Below are positions 27,995-33,652 of a DNA stretch of 33,652 nucleotides, one piece after another. Made by a program: the position numbers and the translations under genes. Every line of letters begins with the position of its first letter. Position 1 is the first letter of the stretch. The DNA comes from Prevotella sp. (lineage in GTDB: Bacteria > Bacteroidota > Bacteroidia > Bacteroidales > Bacteroidaceae). The notes below the pieces were generated by a model that saw only the letters and a program-made list of their open reading frames with translations, did no database searches and was not told where the DNA came from. The DNA is taken from positions 1-33,652 of the forward strand of contig JAFSKJ010000005.1 of assembly GCA_017449025.1 (NCBI GenBank), read 5' to 3'.

Positions 27995-28000
27995 AATTAG

Positions 28001-28255
28001 GAAAATTCCGACCTGTGCGGTTGAAATGACGCTGAAAGCGTCTCCGCTCAGTAACCGTAGTGTCCGAAGGACCTGCGGACAAATGAAAGCTGCGGAATGC
28101 ACTCTGAAAGAGTGCCCCAGCAGCAGTATTGGGCGACCCCTTTAGGGTCGTTGTCCTCCCCTCTGCTTCTCCGGGGGTGCTTCGCACCACCCGGTTATTG
28201 AGAGGTGACCGCGTTGCGGTCATACTGCAGTTCAACCGCACAGCACGGAAAATTC
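28001..28255. repeat. Six-hairpin cassette bounded by 25-bp inverted repeats
   Basis: The arms 28001-28025 and 28231-28255 are reverse complements with four mismatches (shared core CTGTGCGGTTGAA). Between them lie six hairpins: 28028-28042 (GACGC TGAAA GCGTC), 28062-28072 (GTCC GAA GGAC), 28099-28115 (GCACTC TGAAA GAGTGC), 28134-28150 (CGACCC...GGGTCG), 28171-28194 (nested GGTGC/GCACC) and 28207-28221 (GACCGC GTT GCGGTC). No open frame of note. The outer repeat suggests a MITE-like unit; it ends 30 bp before the trp promoter. Confidence 0.75.
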
Positions 28256-28284
28256 TGGCAAAAAGAAAAATAATTGGGAAAAAA

Positions 28285-28316
28285 TTTGGCAGAAAGAAAT
28301 TAAATGCTTACTTTTG
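28285..28316 (+). promoter_or_regulatory. trp operon promoter (TTTG-N20-TACTTTTG)
   Basis: TTTG at 28285-28288, a 20-nt spacer and TACTTTTG at 28309-28316 make a complete Bacteroidetes-type promoter. The start site would be near 28322, about 30 nt before the leader peptide. Confidence 0.8.
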
Positions 28317-28350
28317 CAGCCGAATAGTTATTGAACGAGAATAATCAAGT

Positions 28351-28407
28351 ATGAAAATGACTGTAAACTTTTGGTGGTGGCGCAACTCAAGATTCGGACA
28401 ATCGTGA
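28351..28407 (+). CDS. trpL: trp leader peptide with three consecutive Trp codons
   Basis: ATG to TGA encodes 18 residues, MKMTVNFWWWRNSRFGQS. Three adjacent TGG codons lie at 28372-28380. A strong terminator hairpin follows 41 nt after the stop, before trpB. This is the classic layout of ribosome-mediated attenuation: starvation for tryptophan-loaded tRNA stalls the ribosome on the TGG run and changes folding of the following RNA. The Trp codons (28373-28377) can pair weakly with 28420-28424, and GCCT at 28418-28421 with AGGC at 28450-28453 of the terminator arm, a possible switch; these pairings are short. Confidence 0.85.
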   Translation: MKMTVNFWWWRNSRFGQS

Positions 28408-28448
28408 GAAGATAGCCGCCTACCTATATTTTACAATTAAGATACTGA

Positions 28449-28488
28449 GAGGCCTGTCGTAATCACGACGGGTCTCTTTTCAGTTTTA
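28449..28488 (+). terminator. trp attenuator terminator
   Basis: GAGGCCTGTCGT (28449-28460), loop AATC, ACGACGGGTCTC (28465-28476): 12 continuous pairs including two wobbles, followed by TTTTCAGTTTT. It lies between the leader peptide and trpB. Confidence 0.88.
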
Positions 28489-28500
28489 AAAGACAACAAT

Positions 28501-28540
28501 CGACATATCGTAATATCGACATCACGAAATAAACAAAAAA
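28501..28540 (+). repeat. 8-bp-phased CGAAATAT-like repeats before trpB
   Basis: Units CGACATAT, CGTAATAT, CGACATCA, CGAAATAA and ACAAAAAA start every 8 bp from 28501 and run up to the trpB start codon. The same unit precedes trpD and trpC. Confidence 0.65.
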
Positions 28541-28542
28541 AT

Positions 28543-29727
28543 ATGAGTACTTATCAAGTTGACGAGAAAGGATTTTACGGGGAGTTCGGCGGCGCGTATG
28601 TGCCGGAGATTCTGTACAAGTGCGTGAAGGACTTGCAGGAGGCGTACAGGCCGATTGTGGAGAGCGAGGAGTTTAAGGCGGAGTATCACGCGCTGCTGAA
28701 GGACTATGTGGGCAGGCCCTCGCCGCTGTACCTTGCAAAAAGGATGAGCGAGCGTTACGGTTGCCAGCTGTATCTGAAGCGCGAGGATTTGAACCACACG
28801 GGTGCGCACAAGATCAACAACACCATCGGGCAGATTCTGCTGGCGAAGAAGATGGGAAAGACCCGAATCATCGCGGAGACGGGAGCCGGACAGCACGGCG
28901 TGGCGACGGCGACGGTGTGTGCGCTGATGGACATGAAGTGCGAGGTGTTCATGGGCGCGACGGACGTGGAGCGACAGCACACGAACGTGGAACGCATGAA
29001 AATGCTCGGCGCCGAGGTGCATCCGGTGCGGACGGGCAACATGACGCTGAGCGATGCCTGCTCGGAGGCCATCCGCGACTGGTGCTGCCATCCCGCCGAC
29101 ACTTTTTACATCGTCGGCTCGACGATGGGGCCGCACCCGTACCCCGACTTGGTGGCGCGGATGCAGAGCGTCATCTCGGAGGAGATCAAGTGGCAGCTGC
29201 AGGAGAAGATCGGGCGCGACTACCCCGACTATCTCGTGGCCTGCATCGGCGGGGGAAGCAATGCCGCCGGCACGATTTACCACTACATGGACGACAATCG
29301 CGTAAAAATTGTGCTGGCCGAAGCCGGCGGCCACGGCTGGGACACGGACTACACGGCGGCGACGATTCACCGCGGCACGGTCGGCATACTGCACGGGGCG
29401 AAGATGCTCGTGATGCAGGACGACGACGGGCAGATACAGGAAGCTTTCACCATCTCGGCAGGCCTGGACTATCCGGGCGTGGGCCCCATGCACTGCAACA
29501 TGGCGAAGAAGGGCCGCACGCAGGTGCTGAGCATCAACGACGACGAGGCCATCTACGGCGGCTACGAGCTGACGCGCATGGAGGGCATCATCCCCGCCAT
29601 CGAATCAGCCCACGCCATCGCCGCGCTCTCCAAGCTCAGCTTCAAGAAGGATGACGTGGTGGTGCTGACGGTCAGCGGACGCGGCGACAAGGACATTGAA
29701 ACGTACCTCAAGAATAAACCAAAGTAA
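28543..29727 (+). CDS. trpB: Tryptophan synthase beta subunit
   Basis: 394 residues, starting MSTYQVDEKGFYGEFGGAYV. KREDLNHTGAHKINN carries the PLP-binding Lys, ETGAGQHGVATA the catalytic Glu region, and CIGGGSNAAG binds the PLP phosphate. It makes tryptophan from indole and serine together with TrpA, which is not in the window and probably lies beyond trpC. It is the first structural gene of the operon, as is usual in Bacteroidetes (trpB-E-G-D-C-F-A). The stop codon lies at the left edge of a 35-bp inverted repeat whose other arm is inside trpE. I see no insertion within trpB itself. Confidence 0.97.
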   Translation: MSTYQVDEKGFYGEFGGAYVPEILYKCVKDLQEAYRPIVESEEFKAEYHALLKDYVGRPSPLYLAKRMSERYGCQLYLKREDLNHTGAHKINNTIGQILLAKKMGKTRIIAETGAGQHGVATATVCALMDMKCEVFMGATDVERQHTNVERMKMLGAEVHPVRTGNMTLSDACSEAIRDWCCHPADTFYIVGSTMGPHPYPDLVARMQSVISEEIKWQLQEKIGRDYPDYLVACIGGGSNAAGTIYHYMDDNRVKIVLAEAGGHGWDTDYTAATIHRGTVGILHGAKMLVMQDDDGQIQEAFTISAGLDYPGVGPMHCNMAKKGRTQVLSINDDEAIYGGYELTRMEGIIPAIESAHAIAALSKLSFKKDDVVVLTVSGRGDKDIETYLKNKPK

Positions 29728-29858
29728 AAGCCCACCCAAGCCCTCCCGAAGGGAGGGATGTTTAGATAGATAAATAAATAGATAATTATGAATAATAGTA
29801 AAAACATTGCATCTGGTAACCAGACATCCCTCCCTTCGGGAGGGCTTGGGTGGGCTTT
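29727..29858. repeat. 35-bp perfect inverted repeat bracketing the trpE start codon
   Basis: Arms 29727-29761 and 29824-29858 are exact reverse complements, with a 62-nt loop that contains the trpE ATG (29788). Each arm also folds on itself (CCCTCCC GAA GGGAGGG). The left arm starts at the last base of the trpB stop codon; the right arm is translated as residues 13-24 of TrpE. Confidence 0.92.
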
Positions 29859-31302
29859 CACCACCGTGTCGAAGACCATTCTCGCCGACCTCTACACCCC
29901 CGTCGGCGTGTACATGCGGCTGCGCGACCTCTATCCGCAGAGCGCGCTGATGGAGAGTTCGGACTACCACGAGAAGGACAACTCGCGCTCGTTCATCGGC
30001 ATCAATCCCATGGCGAGCGTGGCCATCGGCCACGGCGTGGCAACCATCACCTTCCCCGACGGAACGACGGAGGAGCACGAGGTGAACAGCGACTACCGCT
30101 CGGACAGGGCCATCCACGCGCTGATAGACCGCATCGAGGTCGAGGGCGATGACGCCAGGACGTGCGGCCTCTTCGGCTACACGAGCTTCAACGCCGTGCG
30201 CTACTTCGAGGACATCGCGGTGAAGGACGAGACGCAGGCGAAGAACGACGCGCCCGACCTGCTATATATATTATACAAGGTGGTGATTGTGTTCGACCAC
30301 TTCAATAATACGCTCACAATCGTTTCACTCAATGGCGAGAAAGAACTTGATAACGTCATGAAGGCCATGAACAAAGCCAACGTGAAGGCTTACGACTTCC
30401 ACCCCGTGGGCGACATGCGGTCGACGCTGACCGACGAGGAGCACAAGGCGAACATCCGGCGGGGCATCAAGCACTGCCTGCGCGGCGACGTATTCCAGAT
30501 CGTGCTCTCGCGGCGCTTCATCCAGCAGTACGAGGGCGACGACTTCAAGCTCTACCGTGCCCTGCGCAGCATCAACCCATCGCCTTACCTCTTCTACTTC
30601 GACTTCGGCGGATTCCGCATCTTCGGCTCCTCGCCGGAGACCCACTGCCGGATAAGCCCCCCCCATCCCCCCCTTGGGGGGGAGTCCCGGAGTGCATCCA
30701 TTACCCCCCTGGGGGGGGGACAGGGGGGGCCTCGCATGTATATCGACCCCATCGCCGGCACGACCCGGCGCACGGGCGATGCCGAGACCGACCGCAAGGG
30801 CGCGGAGTACCTGCGCAACGACCCGAAGGAGAACGCCGAGCACGTGATGCTCGTCGATCTGGCCCGCAACGACCTCTCGCGCAACTGCCACGGCGTGAAG
30901 GTGGACTTCTACAAGGACCTGCAGTACTACTCGCACGTCATCCACCTCGTCAGCCGCGTCTCCGGCGAGCTCGACGAAGACAAAGACCCCATCAAGGCCT
31001 TCATCGACACGTTCCCCGCCGGCACGCTCAGCGGAGCGCCCAAGGTGCGCGCCATGCAGCTCATCTCCGAGTACGAGCCCCACAACCGCGGCGCCTACGG
31101 CGGCTGCATCGGCTACATCGGCCTCGACGGCTCACTCAACCAGGCCATCACCATCCGCACCTTCGTCTCGCGCAACGGCGAGCTGTGGTTCCAGGCGGGC
31201 GGCGGCATCGTAGCGAAGAGCAACGAAGAGTACGAGCTGCAGGAAGTGAATAATAAGCTCGGCGCCCTGCGCCGCGCGATACTAATGGCCGAGAAGATGT
31301 AA
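29788..31302 (+). CDS. trpE: Anthranilate synthase component I, carrying two in-frame palindromic insertions
   Basis: 504 residues; relatives I know are about 465-470. Typical features: KTILADLYTPVGVYMRLRD and LMESSD (feedback-site region), SSPETH, DPIAGTTRRTGD, ENAEHVMLVDLARNDL and GTLSGAPKVRAMQLI. It converts chorismate, with ammonia supplied by TrpG, to anthranilate. Residues 13-24 (TSLPSGGLGWAF) are encoded by one arm of the 35-bp inverted repeat. Residues 290-316 (SPPHPPLGGE...GGGQGGPR) are a G/C-homopolymer-rich palindromic insert placed between SSPETHCRI and MYIDPIAGT, where relatives have only a short loop. Both keep the frame. Removing them gives about the usual length, so the enzyme is probably functional. 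Confidence 0.95.
   Translation: MNNSKNIASGNQTSLPSGGLGWAFTTVSKTILADLYTPVGVYMRLRDLYPQSALMESSDYHEKDNSRSFIGINPMASVAIGHGVATITFPDGTTEEHEVNSDYRSDRAIHALIDRIEVEGDDARTCGLFGYTSFNAVRYFEDIAVKDETQAKNDAPDLLYILYKVVIVFDHFNNTLTIVSLNGEKELDNVMKAMNKANVKAYDFHPVGDMRSTLTDEEHKANIRRGIKHCLRGDVFQIVLSRRFIQQYEGDDFKLYRALRSINPSPYLFYFDFGGFRIFGSSPETHCRISPPHPPLGGESRSASITPLGGGQGGPRMYIDPIAGTTRRTGDAETDRKGAEYLRNDPKENAEHVMLVDLARNDLSRNCHGVKVDFYKDLQYYSHVIHLVSRVSGELDEDKDPIKAFIDTFPAGTLSGAPKVRAMQLISEYEPHNRGAYGGCIGYIGLDGSLNQAITIRTFVSRNGELWFQAGGGIVAKSNEEYELQEVNNKLGALRRAILMAEKM
30655..30735. repeat. In-frame palindromic insertion in trpE
   Basis: 81 nt (27 codons). The left half (GCCCCCCCCATCCCCCCCTT then a G-run) and the right half at 30703-30732 are imperfect reverse complements; each half has its own C-run/G-run hairpin. 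Flanking residues match conserved TrpE sequence on both sides. Confidence 0.8.
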
Positions 31303-31372
31303 TATTCAGCCCCGAAGGTAAGAAAGCGAAAGATGCAGGGACGCGAACCAGCCCCGAAGGGGCGACAAGACC

Positions 31373-31504
31373 ACAGGCAGGGGTGCAACCCCTGCAATGG
31401 CCGCAGGCAGGAAAGTCCCGAAGGGCCGACAGAGCAGCCTGTCACCTTTTCAGGGTTCCGCCGTTTCCGACGCAACAGGATACAGGGGTTGCACCCCTGC
31501 CTGT
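31373..31504. repeat. 22-bp perfect inverted repeat between trpE and trpG
   Basis: 31373-31394 (core GGCAGGGGTGCAACCCCTG) is the exact reverse complement of 31483-31504. The 339-nt gap 31303-31641 also holds several CCCGAAGGG-type mini-palindromes (for example GCCCCGAAGGGGC near 31351). No gene is seen in this gap. Confidence 0.8.
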
Positions 31505-31515
31505 AATCTGATAGC

Positions 31516-31627
31516 CCTTCGGGCTTCACGGCCACGAAAACCCACCGTCTGAACGGCCTTCGGGCATCACGGCAACGAAAAACCCACCGTCTGAACGGCC
31601 TTCGGGCTTCACGACGACGAAAAACAA
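31516..31627. repeat. 41/42-bp tandem repeat, about 2.7 copies, upstream of trpG
   Basis: Units start at 31516, 31557 and 31599 with CCTTCGGGCTTCACGGCCAC or close variants; the first two run on through CCCACCGTCTGAACGG. The third is cut short 14 nt before the trpG ATG. Confidence 0.8.
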
Positions 31628-31641
31628 AAATGTAAGAAGCA

Positions 31642-32370
31642 ATGAAGATAGTAATCATCGACAACTACGACTCGTTCACGTACAATCTGAGTCACCTGGT
31701 GAAGGAACTGGGCGCGGAGGTCACCGTCCTGCGCAACGACCAGTTCGAGCTGCCGCAGCTCGAGCAGTTCAGTAAGATAATCCTCTCCCCCGGCCCGGGC
31801 ATCCCCTCGGAGGCGGGCCTGCTGCTCGACGTCATCCGCGAGTACGCCGGCCGCAAGCCCATCCTCGGCGTCTGCCTCGGCCATCAGGCCATCGGCGAGG
31901 CCTTCGGCGCCCGCCTCGAGAACCTCAGCGACGTGTTCCACGGCGTGGCCACCACGTGTCATTTAGTTACAGACCCCACCCCTGCCCCTCCCCTTGAAGG
32001 GAGGGGAGTCCCTGCGGAGTATCCCTCTGCCTCCCTTGAAGGGAGGGGAGTGGCTACCGCCCTGCCTGCCGCCAACTTCTGTGCAGCAGCTCCCCTCCCC
32101 TCAAGGGGAGGGGTCGGGGGTGGGGTCTGTAATCCCATCGACCCGCTCTTCTCCGGCCTCCCCGCCGACATCACCGTCGGCCGCTACCACTCGTGGGTGG
32201 TCTCACGCGAGGGACTCCCCGACTGCCTCGAAGTGACCGCCGTCTCGGACGAGGGCCAGATCATGGCCCTCCGCCACCGCCAGTTGAACGTGCGCGGCAT
32301 ACAGTTCCACCCCGAGAGCGTCCTGACGCCCGACGGACGGCGGATGCTGCAGAACTGGATGTTCCTTTAA
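31642..32370 (+). CDS. trpG: Anthranilate synthase component II (glutamine amidotransferase) with a 55-residue in-frame insertion
   Basis: 242 residues; the family is normally about 187-195. Class I amidotransferase features: IIDNYDSFTYNL, LSPGPGIPSEAG, GVCLGHQAIGEAFG with the nucleophile Cys, and the His/Glu pair in GIQFHPESVLTPDG. It releases ammonia from glutamine for TrpE. Residues about 110-164, encoded by 31967-32132, interrupt the fold between HGVATTCHLV and IDPLFSGLPADITVGRYHSW and consist of Pro/Leu/Gly/Arg-rich repeat translation (PAPPLEGRG, PSASLEGRG, PLPSRGGVGG). Subtracting them restores the usual length. The frame and all catalytic residues are preserved, so a functional protein with an extra surface loop is plausible. 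Confidence 0.94.
   Translation: MKIVIIDNYDSFTYNLSHLVKELGAEVTVLRNDQFELPQLEQFSKIILSPGPGIPSEAGLLLDVIREYAGRKPILGVCLGHQAIGEAFGARLENLSDVFHGVATTCHLVTDPTPAPPLEGRGVPAEYPSASLEGRGVATALPAANFCAAAPLPSRGGVGGGVCNPIDPLFSGLPADITVGRYHSWVVSREGLPDCLEVTAVSDEGQIMALRHRQLNVRGIQFHPESVLTPDGRRMLQNWMFL
31967..32132. repeat. 166-bp in-frame palindromic element in trpG
   Basis: The ends (31967-32008 and 32090-32132) are imperfect reverse complements over about 42 bp (outer core TTACAGACCCCACCCC, inner CCCCTCCCCTTGA), differing at about three sites and one indel. A third copy of the inner hairpin unit lies near 32030-32052. Each unit is a CCCTCCCCTT/AAGGGAGGGG-type hairpin. Confidence 0.9.
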
Positions 32371-32373
32371 CCT

Positions 32374-32413
32374 CGAAATATCGAAATACCGAAATATCGA
32401 AATACTGAAAAAA
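32374..32413 (+). repeat. 8-bp-phased CGAAATAT/C repeats before trpD
   Basis: Four units of CGAAATA followed by T or C start at 32374, 32382, 32390 and 32398, then decay into A-rich sequence. They fill most of the 54-nt gap to the trpD ATG. Confidence 0.85.
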
Positions 32414-32424
32414 AGAATAAGACA

Positions 32425-33486
32425 ATGGCACAGACAATGAAAGACATCCTCAACCGGATGCTCAACCACGAGGAACTATCCCGTGAAGAAATGAAAACCA
32501 TCCTGGTGGGCATCACTCAGAGTGAATACCCCACCGAGCAGATCACAGCCCTGCTCACCGCCCTGCAGATGCGTGGCGTCACGGTGGACGAGCTGCTCGG
32601 CTTCCGCGACGGCATCCTCGAGACCGGCGTGCCCGCCATCCTCAATGCCGACCGCTACATCGACGTCGTAGGCACCGGCGGCGACCGCAAGAACACTTTT
32701 AATATCTCGACTACGTCATGCTTCGTCATCGCCGGCGCCGGCTACAAAGTCGCCAAGCACGGCAACTACGCCGCCACCAGCGTCAGCGGCGCCTCCAACG
32801 TCATTCAGCACCACGGCATCCGCTTCACCGACGACATCGACCGCCTCAACCGCTCGCTCAACGAGGCTGGCATCGTCTACCTCCACGCACAGCTCTTCGC
32901 CCGCGCCATGAAGTTCGTCGGACCCATCCGCAAGGCCCTACAGTTCCCCACCATCTTCAACCTCCTCGGCCCCCTCGTCAACCCCAGCCAGCCCCAGTGC
33001 CAGCTACTCGGCGTGGCCAACCTCGACCAGATGCGCCTCTACCAGCAGGTCTACCAGCGCATCGGCATCGACTACGGCATCGTCAACTCCATCGACGGCT
33101 ACGACGAAATCTCCCTGACGGGCCCGTTCAAAGTCACCGTCGGCATCGCCCCCGCCGCCACCCCCGCCGCCACTGTTCCCGGCGCTTCTCCGTCGGGTTA
33201 CGAGCGCATCTTCAGCCCCAAGGACCTCGGCTTCGAAATCGCCAAGCCCGAAGAACTCGTCGGCGGCGCCACCGAAGAGGAGGCCGCAGCCATCTTCGAC
33301 GCCGTCCTCGAGAACCGCGCCCTCCCCGCCCAGAAGAACATCGTCCTCGCCAACGCCGCCTTCGGCATCCAAGTGCTGGAGAAGGGCGAGAAGAGCATCG
33401 AGGAGTGCATCGCCATCGCCCGCGAGAGCATCGATAGTGGCGCCGCCCTCCGCACCTTCAAGAAGTTCGTCGAACTGAACAGCTAA
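32425..33486 (+). CDS. trpD: Anthranilate phosphoribosyltransferase
   Basis: 353 residues. VVGTGGDRKNTFNISTTS is the PRPP-binding loop; KHGNYAATSVSGASNVI, GPIRKALQFPTIFNLLGPLVNP and DGYDEISLTG are further family motifs. It transfers the phosphoribosyl group of PRPP to anthranilate. Residues about 240-257 (IAPAATPAATVPGASPS) are low-complexity, encoded in part by a direct repeat of CCCGCCGCCAC, and make the protein slightly longer than relatives I know; they sit before the YERIFSPKDLGF segment. The DNA is visibly GC-rich with mostly C-ending codons. Confidence 0.96.
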   Translation: MAQTMKDILNRMLNHEELSREEMKTILVGITQSEYPTEQITALLTALQMRGVTVDELLGFRDGILETGVPAILNADRYIDVVGTGGDRKNTFNISTTSCFVIAGAGYKVAKHGNYAATSVSGASNVIQHHGIRFTDDIDRLNRSLNEAGIVYLHAQLFARAMKFVGPIRKALQFPTIFNLLGPLVNPSQPQCQLLGVANLDQMRLYQQVYQRIGIDYGIVNSIDGYDEISLTGPFKVTVGIAPAATPAATVPGASPSGYERIFSPKDLGFEIAKPEELVGGATEEEAAAIFDAVLENRALPAQKNIVLANAAFGIQVLEKGEKSIEECIAIARESIDSGAALRTFKKFVELNS

Positions 33487-33487
33487 T

Positions 33488-33535
33488 CGACATCTCGAAA
33501 TATCGAAATAACGAAATATCGAAAAAACGAAAAAA
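33488..33535 (+). repeat. 8-bp-phased repeats before trpC
   Basis: Units CGACATCT, CGAAATAT, CGAAATAA, CGAAATAT, CGAAAAAA and a last CGAAAAA start every 8 bp from 33488 and run into the trpC ATG at 33535. Confidence 0.85.
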
Positions 33536-33652
33536 TGCAAGACATCCTGCAACAAATCATCGCCCACAAGCGCGAGGAGCTGGCCGCCATCCGCGCCGTC
33601 TGTCCTCTATGCGGTGACAGTGTCGCCGGCCCCCCCCCCCCCCGCCGGGCCC
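33535..33652 (+). CDS. trpC: Indole-3-glycerol-phosphate synthase, N-terminal fragment (runs off the window)
   Basis: The visible start is MQDILQQIIAHKREELAAIR, which fits the N-terminus of TrpC proteins and the expected gene order. After about residue 22 the sequence reads VCPLCGDSVAG and then a 14-base C run (33630-33643) translated as Pro. That part does not resemble TrpC, so a further in-frame repeat element or an assembly error at the contig end is possible. The complete enzyme would close the indole ring to form indole-3-glycerol phosphate. Confidence 0.7.
   Translation, partial: MQDILQQIIAHKREELAAIRAVCPLCGDSVAGPPPPRRA

Follow-up and report, generated by a model that had tools for sequence, protein, structure and literature searches.

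Palindromic repeats carried in frame by trp genes and other protein-coding genes of a Prevotella genome

How do long palindromes come to stand inside the reading frames of conserved enzymes, and do they belong to elements that spread through a genome? The question is raised by the trp operon at the end of a 33,652-nt stretch of DNA (the window) from Prevotella sp., contig JAFSKJ010000005.1 (C49) of assembly GCA_017449025.1, a 3.5-Mb draft of 134 contigs that is 80.65% complete. The operon comprises trpB (28543-29727), trpE (29788-31302), trpG (31642-32370), trpD (32425-33486) and the start of trpC. Palindromic elements lie within trpG and trpE, and related copies occur inside and outside other genes. 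We consider it likely that these are elements resembling repetitive extragenic palindromic sequences (REP) and REP doublets forming hairpins (REPIN), which have spread through the genome, are read through when in frame and have survived where the protein tolerates them.

In-frame inserts in TrpG and TrpE

The trpG gene (forward strand) encodes an anthranilate synthase glutaminase of 242 amino acids (aa; Pfam GATase) and contains a type-A palindromic element at 31967-32132 on the same strand, with outer parts TTACAGACCCC...GGGGTCTGTAA and three inner hairpins. Its 40-nt arms (31967-32006 and 32093-32132) are 78% complementary, an overlapping pair of 42 nt reaches 81%, and the inverted repeat lies wholly within the gene. 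The fold of 31960-32140 scores -127.4 kcal/mol (z -9.6), and none of 200 shuffles was as good. The element is in frame and accounts for a net 55 residues, at about positions 111-165.

TrpG is 187-189 aa long in 13 of 14 aligned relatives of the same genus and 202 aa in the remaining one, a comparison covering the 14 of 29 relative loci that are left once the 15 minus-strand loci are set aside. The homologous pieces, residues 1-111 and 167-242, abut to the base in several relatives (e.g., G007, G050, G059 and G013), precisely at the insert site, and the palindromic insert is not present in the aligned relatives; the codons across the site were set out for 16 relatives. Some other genomes have longer stop-to-stop frames at this site, up to 272 aa. 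Compared with the relatives, no target-site duplication is evident by eye at this single site; inverted ends are present. In an AlphaFold model built with 30 sequences, residues 114-163 have a predicted local distance difference test score below 50 and the core is mostly above 85; the core is thus predicted with confidence and the insert is predicted to be disordered. The residues that are invariant across the alignment include C78, H223 and E225, which we take to be the catalytic triad. A candidate peptide of the insert is GVPAEYPSASLEGR.

The trpE gene (forward strand) encodes anthranilate synthase component I (504 aa; Pfam Anth_synt_I_N and Chorismate_bind). A type-C element at 30655-30732, forward and in frame (SPPHPPLGGESRSASITPLGGGQGGP; a C/G hairpin pair), encodes residues 290-315. 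The interval between the conserved motifs HCRIS and MYIDP is 26 residues here (SPPHPPLGG...GGQGGP), compared with a turn of three residues in 53 of 74 relatives and 5 to 75 residues in the other 21. On this alignment, the site is to be seen as a permissive loop, and its variability in relatives favours tolerance over targeting as the reason for its occupation. In two relatives (L096 and L125), the same loop is filled by other repeat-like peptides, SEVRGERL...SPLTSHLSP and AGPEADASGTAERM in tandem, the tandem array being that of L125.

A preliminary description of the window, made from its sequence, had proposed that TrpG carries an in-frame palindromic insert whose removal would restore a length of about 187, which is borne out in both parts. 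It had also given TrpE two in-frame inserts between conserved blocks, with a length of about 465 once they are removed. The internal insert stands, but the first one runs from the end of trpB into the start of trpE (see below); a length of 463 is indeed found in 11 of 74 relatives, within a range of 463-569.

Repeat families, reading frames and host genes

The elements fall into related but distinct families: A/D, with GACCCCACCCC or GCCTCACCCCC outer ends; B, with AAGCCCACCCAAGCCCTCCC; and C, with AGCCCCC...CCCCCC. The single shared design that had been suggested for them therefore holds for the hairpin plan, and not for the sequence, of which there are three families. BLAST (E up to 1, both strands, query itself included) returned 95 (A), 65 (B) and 30 (C) pieces in the genome, and the hairpin pattern matched 83 times, compared with once for the reversed control. 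The expected multi-copy repeat inside and outside genes was thus found genome-wide, with many copies in frame. A short hairpin unit occurring in many copies and in inverted pairs is a feature of REP and REPIN that these elements share; in type B, GTAA-like tags precede the hairpin, by eye. Many type-A hairpin pairs form part of a larger repeat whose ends resemble TGAGYCCACTTTAAAAAGTCA and which is often found close to the end of a contig (L021-L034, on contigs C122, C118, C107, C87, C78, C41, C26, C23, C121 and C12, among others); this larger repeat looks like a miniature inverted-repeat transposable element, or the relic of an insertion sequence, that carries a repeat pair.

The shared sequence bears on a first alternative, that these are ordinary Pro/Gly-rich loops of low complexity, grown by slippage and merely palindrome-like. 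The loops of TrpE and alanyl-tRNA synthetase (AlaRS) do differ among relatives, some of which have tandem or charged inserts, but DNA resembling the elements also forms hairpin pairs in unrelated genes and in non-genic sequence, with identities of 94% for A, 97% for B and 74-90% for C in the best non-self pieces. This makes slippage already unlikely for type A-C copies, and we regard it as a highly improbable origin for them; other loops, such as that of TrpE in L125, may have arisen by slippage.

We classed 71 sites outside the window (23 A/D, 23 B and 25 C, including some hairpins found by regular expression in fetched loci) by the codon usage of their 180-bp flanks. The codon table was trained on seven window genes and 13 open reading frames (ORFs), inserts included, and, when applied to 400 windows of the sequence it was trained on, the method assigned the correct frame to 395. 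Set aside were 17 loci with nested type-A copies (L204-L211, L230-L232 and L234-L239), three weak-match loci (L240-L242) and a few weak BLAST pieces. Coding sequence flanks 30 sites on both sides on one strand; 22 of these are in one frame and open (5 A/D, 5 B and 12 C), six are in different frames and two are in frame with a stop. One site lies between coding flanks on opposite strands, 23 have one coding side and 17 have neither. The eight out-of-frame or stop-containing sites are all type B and are read, on their sequence, as operon junctions, because in each case the frame upstream ends 0-3 nt from where the element begins. This leaves 22 non-junction sites with coding sequence to either side on the same strand, and all 22 are in frame and open. 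Insertions of random length would leave at most a third in frame, so selection has removed the rest or the rest has decayed. The five internal type-B pairs measure 98, 107, 98, 98 and 92 nt, all 2 mod 3, which agrees with their being in frame, as this requires that length; the other 11 measured type-B pairs are mixed (1, 6 and 4 for 0, 1 and 2 mod 3).

The same count speaks to whether the inserts reach the protein at all. Stable as they are, such hairpins might be skipped by translational bypassing or removed at the RNA level, but neither process needs a frame-keeping length or an open frame, and both are seen at every one of the 22 sites; we give this explanation very little credence. We also dropped the idea that pyrimidine/purine runs make the elements stop-free, as the effect is weak and type B has fewer open frames than random: whole sites compared with random genome windows have 4.22/3.70 (A), 3.88/3.34 (C) and 2.09/2.58 (B) open frames.

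Five more sites are internal by Pfam, lying inside or between domains of one ORF (GltB, the first copy in CbiD, a sigma-54 regulator, a radical-SAM protein and an SDF symporter), which brings the internal sites to at least 27 of 71 and, with TrpG and TrpE, to at least 29. Host genes include those for AlaRS (two inserts), methionyl-tRNA synthetase (MetRS), DNA polymerase III alpha (DnaE), a UvrA-like protein, glutamate synthase (GltB), CbiC and CbiD. The insert-bearing domains are longer than their profiles (residues/profile positions): AlaRS 579/538, DnaE 299/259, MetRS 409/389, GltB 442/420, CbiC 205/194, CbiD 262/253 and the SDF symporter 393/381. AlaRS has one match in the draft; its two type-C inserts are absent from all 24 aligned relatives, which carry other variable loops there. 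Set against solved homologues, the insert corresponds to gaps of about 19 residues in DnaE and five in MetRS, and the UvrA-like protein has 35 residues where the homologue chain has 10; in AlaRS, the alignment covers the first insert, with gaps, and ends before the second. GltB carries a palindromic insert at the same spot (before YICSLSxKNIIYKGM) in two species, with different hairpins (L308 1512-1526 in G034, and L218 in the present genome), which would reflect either an old shared insert or repeated insertion.

An assembly or binning artefact, by which repeats were misjoined in a metagenome draft, might be suspected from the 134 contigs, from the many nested type-A copies near contig ends and from the window's ending in a C run. 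A misjoin would, however, fuse two different genes, and coding continues in one frame across the 22 sites; several inserts lie within one Pfam domain; and in-frame open copies occur in other genomes too, once in the single-contig genome G016. An artefact is therefore hardly to be expected.

Type-B pairs at gene junctions and the rest of the operon

The type-B pair at the trpB-trpE junction (29724-29861; AAGCCCACCCAAGCCCTCCC-GAA-GGGAGGG and an inverted copy) has 45-nt arms (29724-29768 and 29817-29861) that are 91% complementary, and its outer GCCC..GGGC spans 126 nt (29730-29855). The fold of 29715-29875 scores -83.6 kcal/mol (z -12.1), again with none of 200 shuffles as good. The left copy directly adjoins the trpB stop codon (29725-29727, forward strand), and the C terminus of TrpB is a few residues shorter than in relatives (KNKPK* here, compared with KNKAMAKEYGEF* in L084). 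The start codon of trpE falls in the stretch that separates the arms, and the palindrome encodes the first 24 or so residues of the trpE ORF, the right copy supplying residues 11-24, approximately. Among 49 relatives' trpB-trpE junctions inspected by eye, L117 has a different palindrome pair, and none was seen in the rest.

Elsewhere in the genome, the first start codon of the next frame lies within or just after the element at seven of the eight type-B junctions; in L172, the open frame extends to 74 nt before the element, and an ATG (METDNK) lies inside it. At 11 sites, as in trpE, a type-B copy lies within the opening codons of an ORF, five of the 11 being among the eight junctions. Pfam names at such sites are PorV (L175), SusD (L176) and ABC ATPase (L172), and several of the encoded stretches look, by eye, like signal peptides.

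These arrangements raise the possibility that type-B pairs are punctuation cassettes, made of a stop, a loop with a start codon and a leader or signal peptide, and kept at operon junctions for expression control. The regular stops at the eight junctions, repeated at trpB, would fit, as would the start codons inside the pair at L165, L166, L174, L180, L181, L184, L185 and trpE, the last in the loop of a long stem, and the different pair in L117. On the other hand, the element ends are often TAA-like and able to supply the stop on their own, and the two cases on C16 (L180 and L181) look alike and may be one duplicated event. We regard a selected function of this kind as unlikely.

Further repeats lie in the operon. 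An inverted-repeat element occupies the trpE-trpG spacer (31360-31517; arms 31360-31394 and 31483-31517); a strict pattern of it matches at the C87 locus only. Three 42-bp direct repeats (GAACGGCCTTCGGGC and kin; 31496-31620) stand ahead of trpG, and short AT-rich arrays with a period of 8 bp (ATCGAAAT and kin; 28491-28548, 32364-32429 and 33478-33551) lie immediately 5′ of the trpB, trpD and trpC starts. TrpD has an Ala/Pro-rich stretch (IAPAATPAATVPGASPSG; 33150-33200), where a hairpin is not evident, and trpC (33537-33652, forward strand), which the preliminary description had thought might hold another insert, is cut by the contig end after 116 bases, in a C run. All eight matches in an Rfam scan of 28000-33652 score below the gathering cut-offs. 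One, a full-length match to the tryptophan leader RNA Bacteroid-trp at 28328-28458, just 5′ of trpB (41.2 bits compared with a gathering score of 49; E 0.021), fits an attenuator there. Those on the elements are to plant or viral families and to the bacterial whalefall-1 (30663-30721), and the spacer matches Acido-Lenti-1 (31350-31395); an Rfam identity for the elements was dismissed, these being taken for chance hairpin matches.

Distribution, mobility and known systems

The hairpin CCTCCCN{2,6}GGGAGG occurs in 50 of 60 genomes of the genus, with up to 253 copies and at most three in reversed controls; G053, G019, G059 and G034 are among those rich in it. Of 198 genomes from the order, 27 contain the tailed hairpin pattern, most of them in few copies. 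Sites were found by BLAST and regular expression in the present genome and by regular expression in the others, a part of the copies being classed in G034, G019 and two further genomes. The hairpin being common in the genus and in-frame copies few elsewhere, it is the wealth of the latter that is notable in this genome. In the single-contig G016, L292 (contig position 957982) has an N terminus reading like guanylate kinase, with a hairpin insert; gmk is a host of Rickettsia palindromic elements (RPE) too, according to excerpts of PMC2229807.

A local hot spot in the trp pathway, one of two readings first proposed, is not supported: the same families occupy many unrelated genes, and the clustering is mild. 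A Poisson estimate from 74 sites puts the genome-wide expectation for windows of this size that contain at least three sites at about 0.03, and the trp cluster is unusual, though only mildly. The hairpin pattern has five matches in the trp regions of 66 relatives (L084-L149, of 80), none of which is gene-internal with coding sequence to either side; the cluster is thus not seen there.

The search for a mobilising enzyme centred on the Y1_Tnp domain, with four matches in the present genome and matches in 35 of 60 genus genomes. A REP-associated tyrosine transposase (RAYT), which the preliminary description had proposed to look for, was not found next to type A-C elements: a Y1 gene flanked by two inverted copies was not seen among 29 genus loci, a part of those with the domain, screened with one hairpin pattern that would miss diverged units, or among the four loci of the present, incomplete draft. 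Only two of the 29 have a hairpin in their flanks, both about 750 bp or more away. In the present genome, two cases are ambiguous: one is a type-A pair 77 bp beyond a truncated Y1 gene (C129), the other a C-like pair at a distance of about 600 bp from what is left of a broken Y1 gene (C117). The Y1 genes on C87 (L001 1501-1842) and C129 (L003 506-760) adjoin repeats with CTCCACC[GC]CCTGCCTGT-like sequence that look, by eye, like the trpE-trpG spacer element; on C87, this other family flanks the gene on both sides. The motif YIRGQEEHH of the C87 gene matches Y- - -Q- -HH, given as the subclass 1.2 signature in excerpts of PMC6006769.

Mobile or formerly mobile REP-pair elements are the best-supported identification. 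Such elements, with one or two C-rich/G-rich hairpins and a G-rich tail, often as an inverted pair, would spread through the genome by a transposase acting in trans, possibly of HuH/Y1 type. The ribosome would read through those landing in frame, and insertions at structured or frame-sensitive positions would be purged. The survivors, in surface loops, inter-domain linkers, signal peptides and operon junctions, would be nearly neutral additions, at times replacing a native loop.

Several observations weigh against this account. No mobilising gene was found beside types A-C, and we saw no two strains that differ by the presence of an insert, the insert-free sites coming from other species. In-frame open copies are rare elsewhere (1 of 46 in G016, 4 of 33 in G034, 2 of 39 in G019 and 1 of 11 in two further genomes together). 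Frameshifts could go unnoticed at the 23 sites that have coding sequence on one side, and stop-free frames are only weakly enriched in 88 hairpin-plus-tail units (5.22 of six open, compared with 4.46; mononucleotide shuffle control). Inserts have replaced native residues in AlaRS and TrpE, and the Pfam excess is smaller than the insert in the SDF symporter and CbiD, so that simple clean transposition is not established at those sites. Finally, as the genome is an 80.65% complete draft, the single copy of AlaRS holds for the draft only.

More tentatively, REP-type palindromes might be a general protein-remodelling force in this Prevotella lineage, several families having rewritten loops of dozens of proteins, including AlaRS, MetRS and DnaE, and donating signal peptides, start regions and stop codons at operon junctions. 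If so, a repeat class known as extragenic would be a source from which new protein sequence and translational punctuation are drawn. This genome, from a gut genus that has cultured members, contains at least 29 in-frame internal sites, some of them in presumably essential genes of which one copy was found, and there are relatives without the insert; this makes it testable whether translated selfish repeats are neutral passengers or raw material for protein sequence. For annotators, some Pro/Gly-rich Prevotella loops (PLGG, GEGLGG, TPLPSRGG) can derive from repeats.

RPE were reportedly described by Ogata in 2000 and 2002. According to excerpts of PMC2229807 and PMC10969869, they are palindromic elements of about 100-150 bp that fall into several families and lie in frame in a large number of conserved genes unrelated to one another, with 44 integrations in R. 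conorii genes (PMC10969869). The elements described here likewise lie in frame in many unrelated protein genes, so that the early comparison with RPE, in a Bacteroidales genome, was apt; unlike RPE as there described, they consist of REP-like, GC-rich hairpin pairs bearing a G-rich tail, with some single-unit inserts, and it is in behaviour that they resemble RPE. With REP and REPIN, as excerpted from PMC2817692, PMC3733652 and PMC6006769, they share short hairpin units, often in inverted pairs, many copies and several families per genome. The GTAG-tagged REP superfamily has that tetranucleotide at one end; the tags that type B shows by eye are GTAA-like. They differ from REPs, which the same excerpts describe as extragenic, in their internal sites, and from REPs with a RAYT in the lack of a Y1 gene found flanked on both sides by types A-C. 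Correia/NEMIS, ERIC, YPAL/RU-2 and QMITE form in-frame gene fusions, and part of a signal peptide can come from YPAL/RU-2 (PMC2229807 and PMC5896051, in part); by those descriptions, hosts, sizes and termini differ. Inverted repeats within coding genes of Nematomorpha mitochondria (PMC6649704, in part) are alike in position but mitochondrial. In the open-licence PMC papers searched, we found no description of in-frame palindromes in Bacteroidales. In-frame palindromes themselves are already known, in Rickettsia, Wolbachia and further cases elsewhere (excerpts of PMC2229807, PMC10969869 and PMC5896051); what we file as new is RPE-like behaviour combined with REP-pair anatomy in another phylum.

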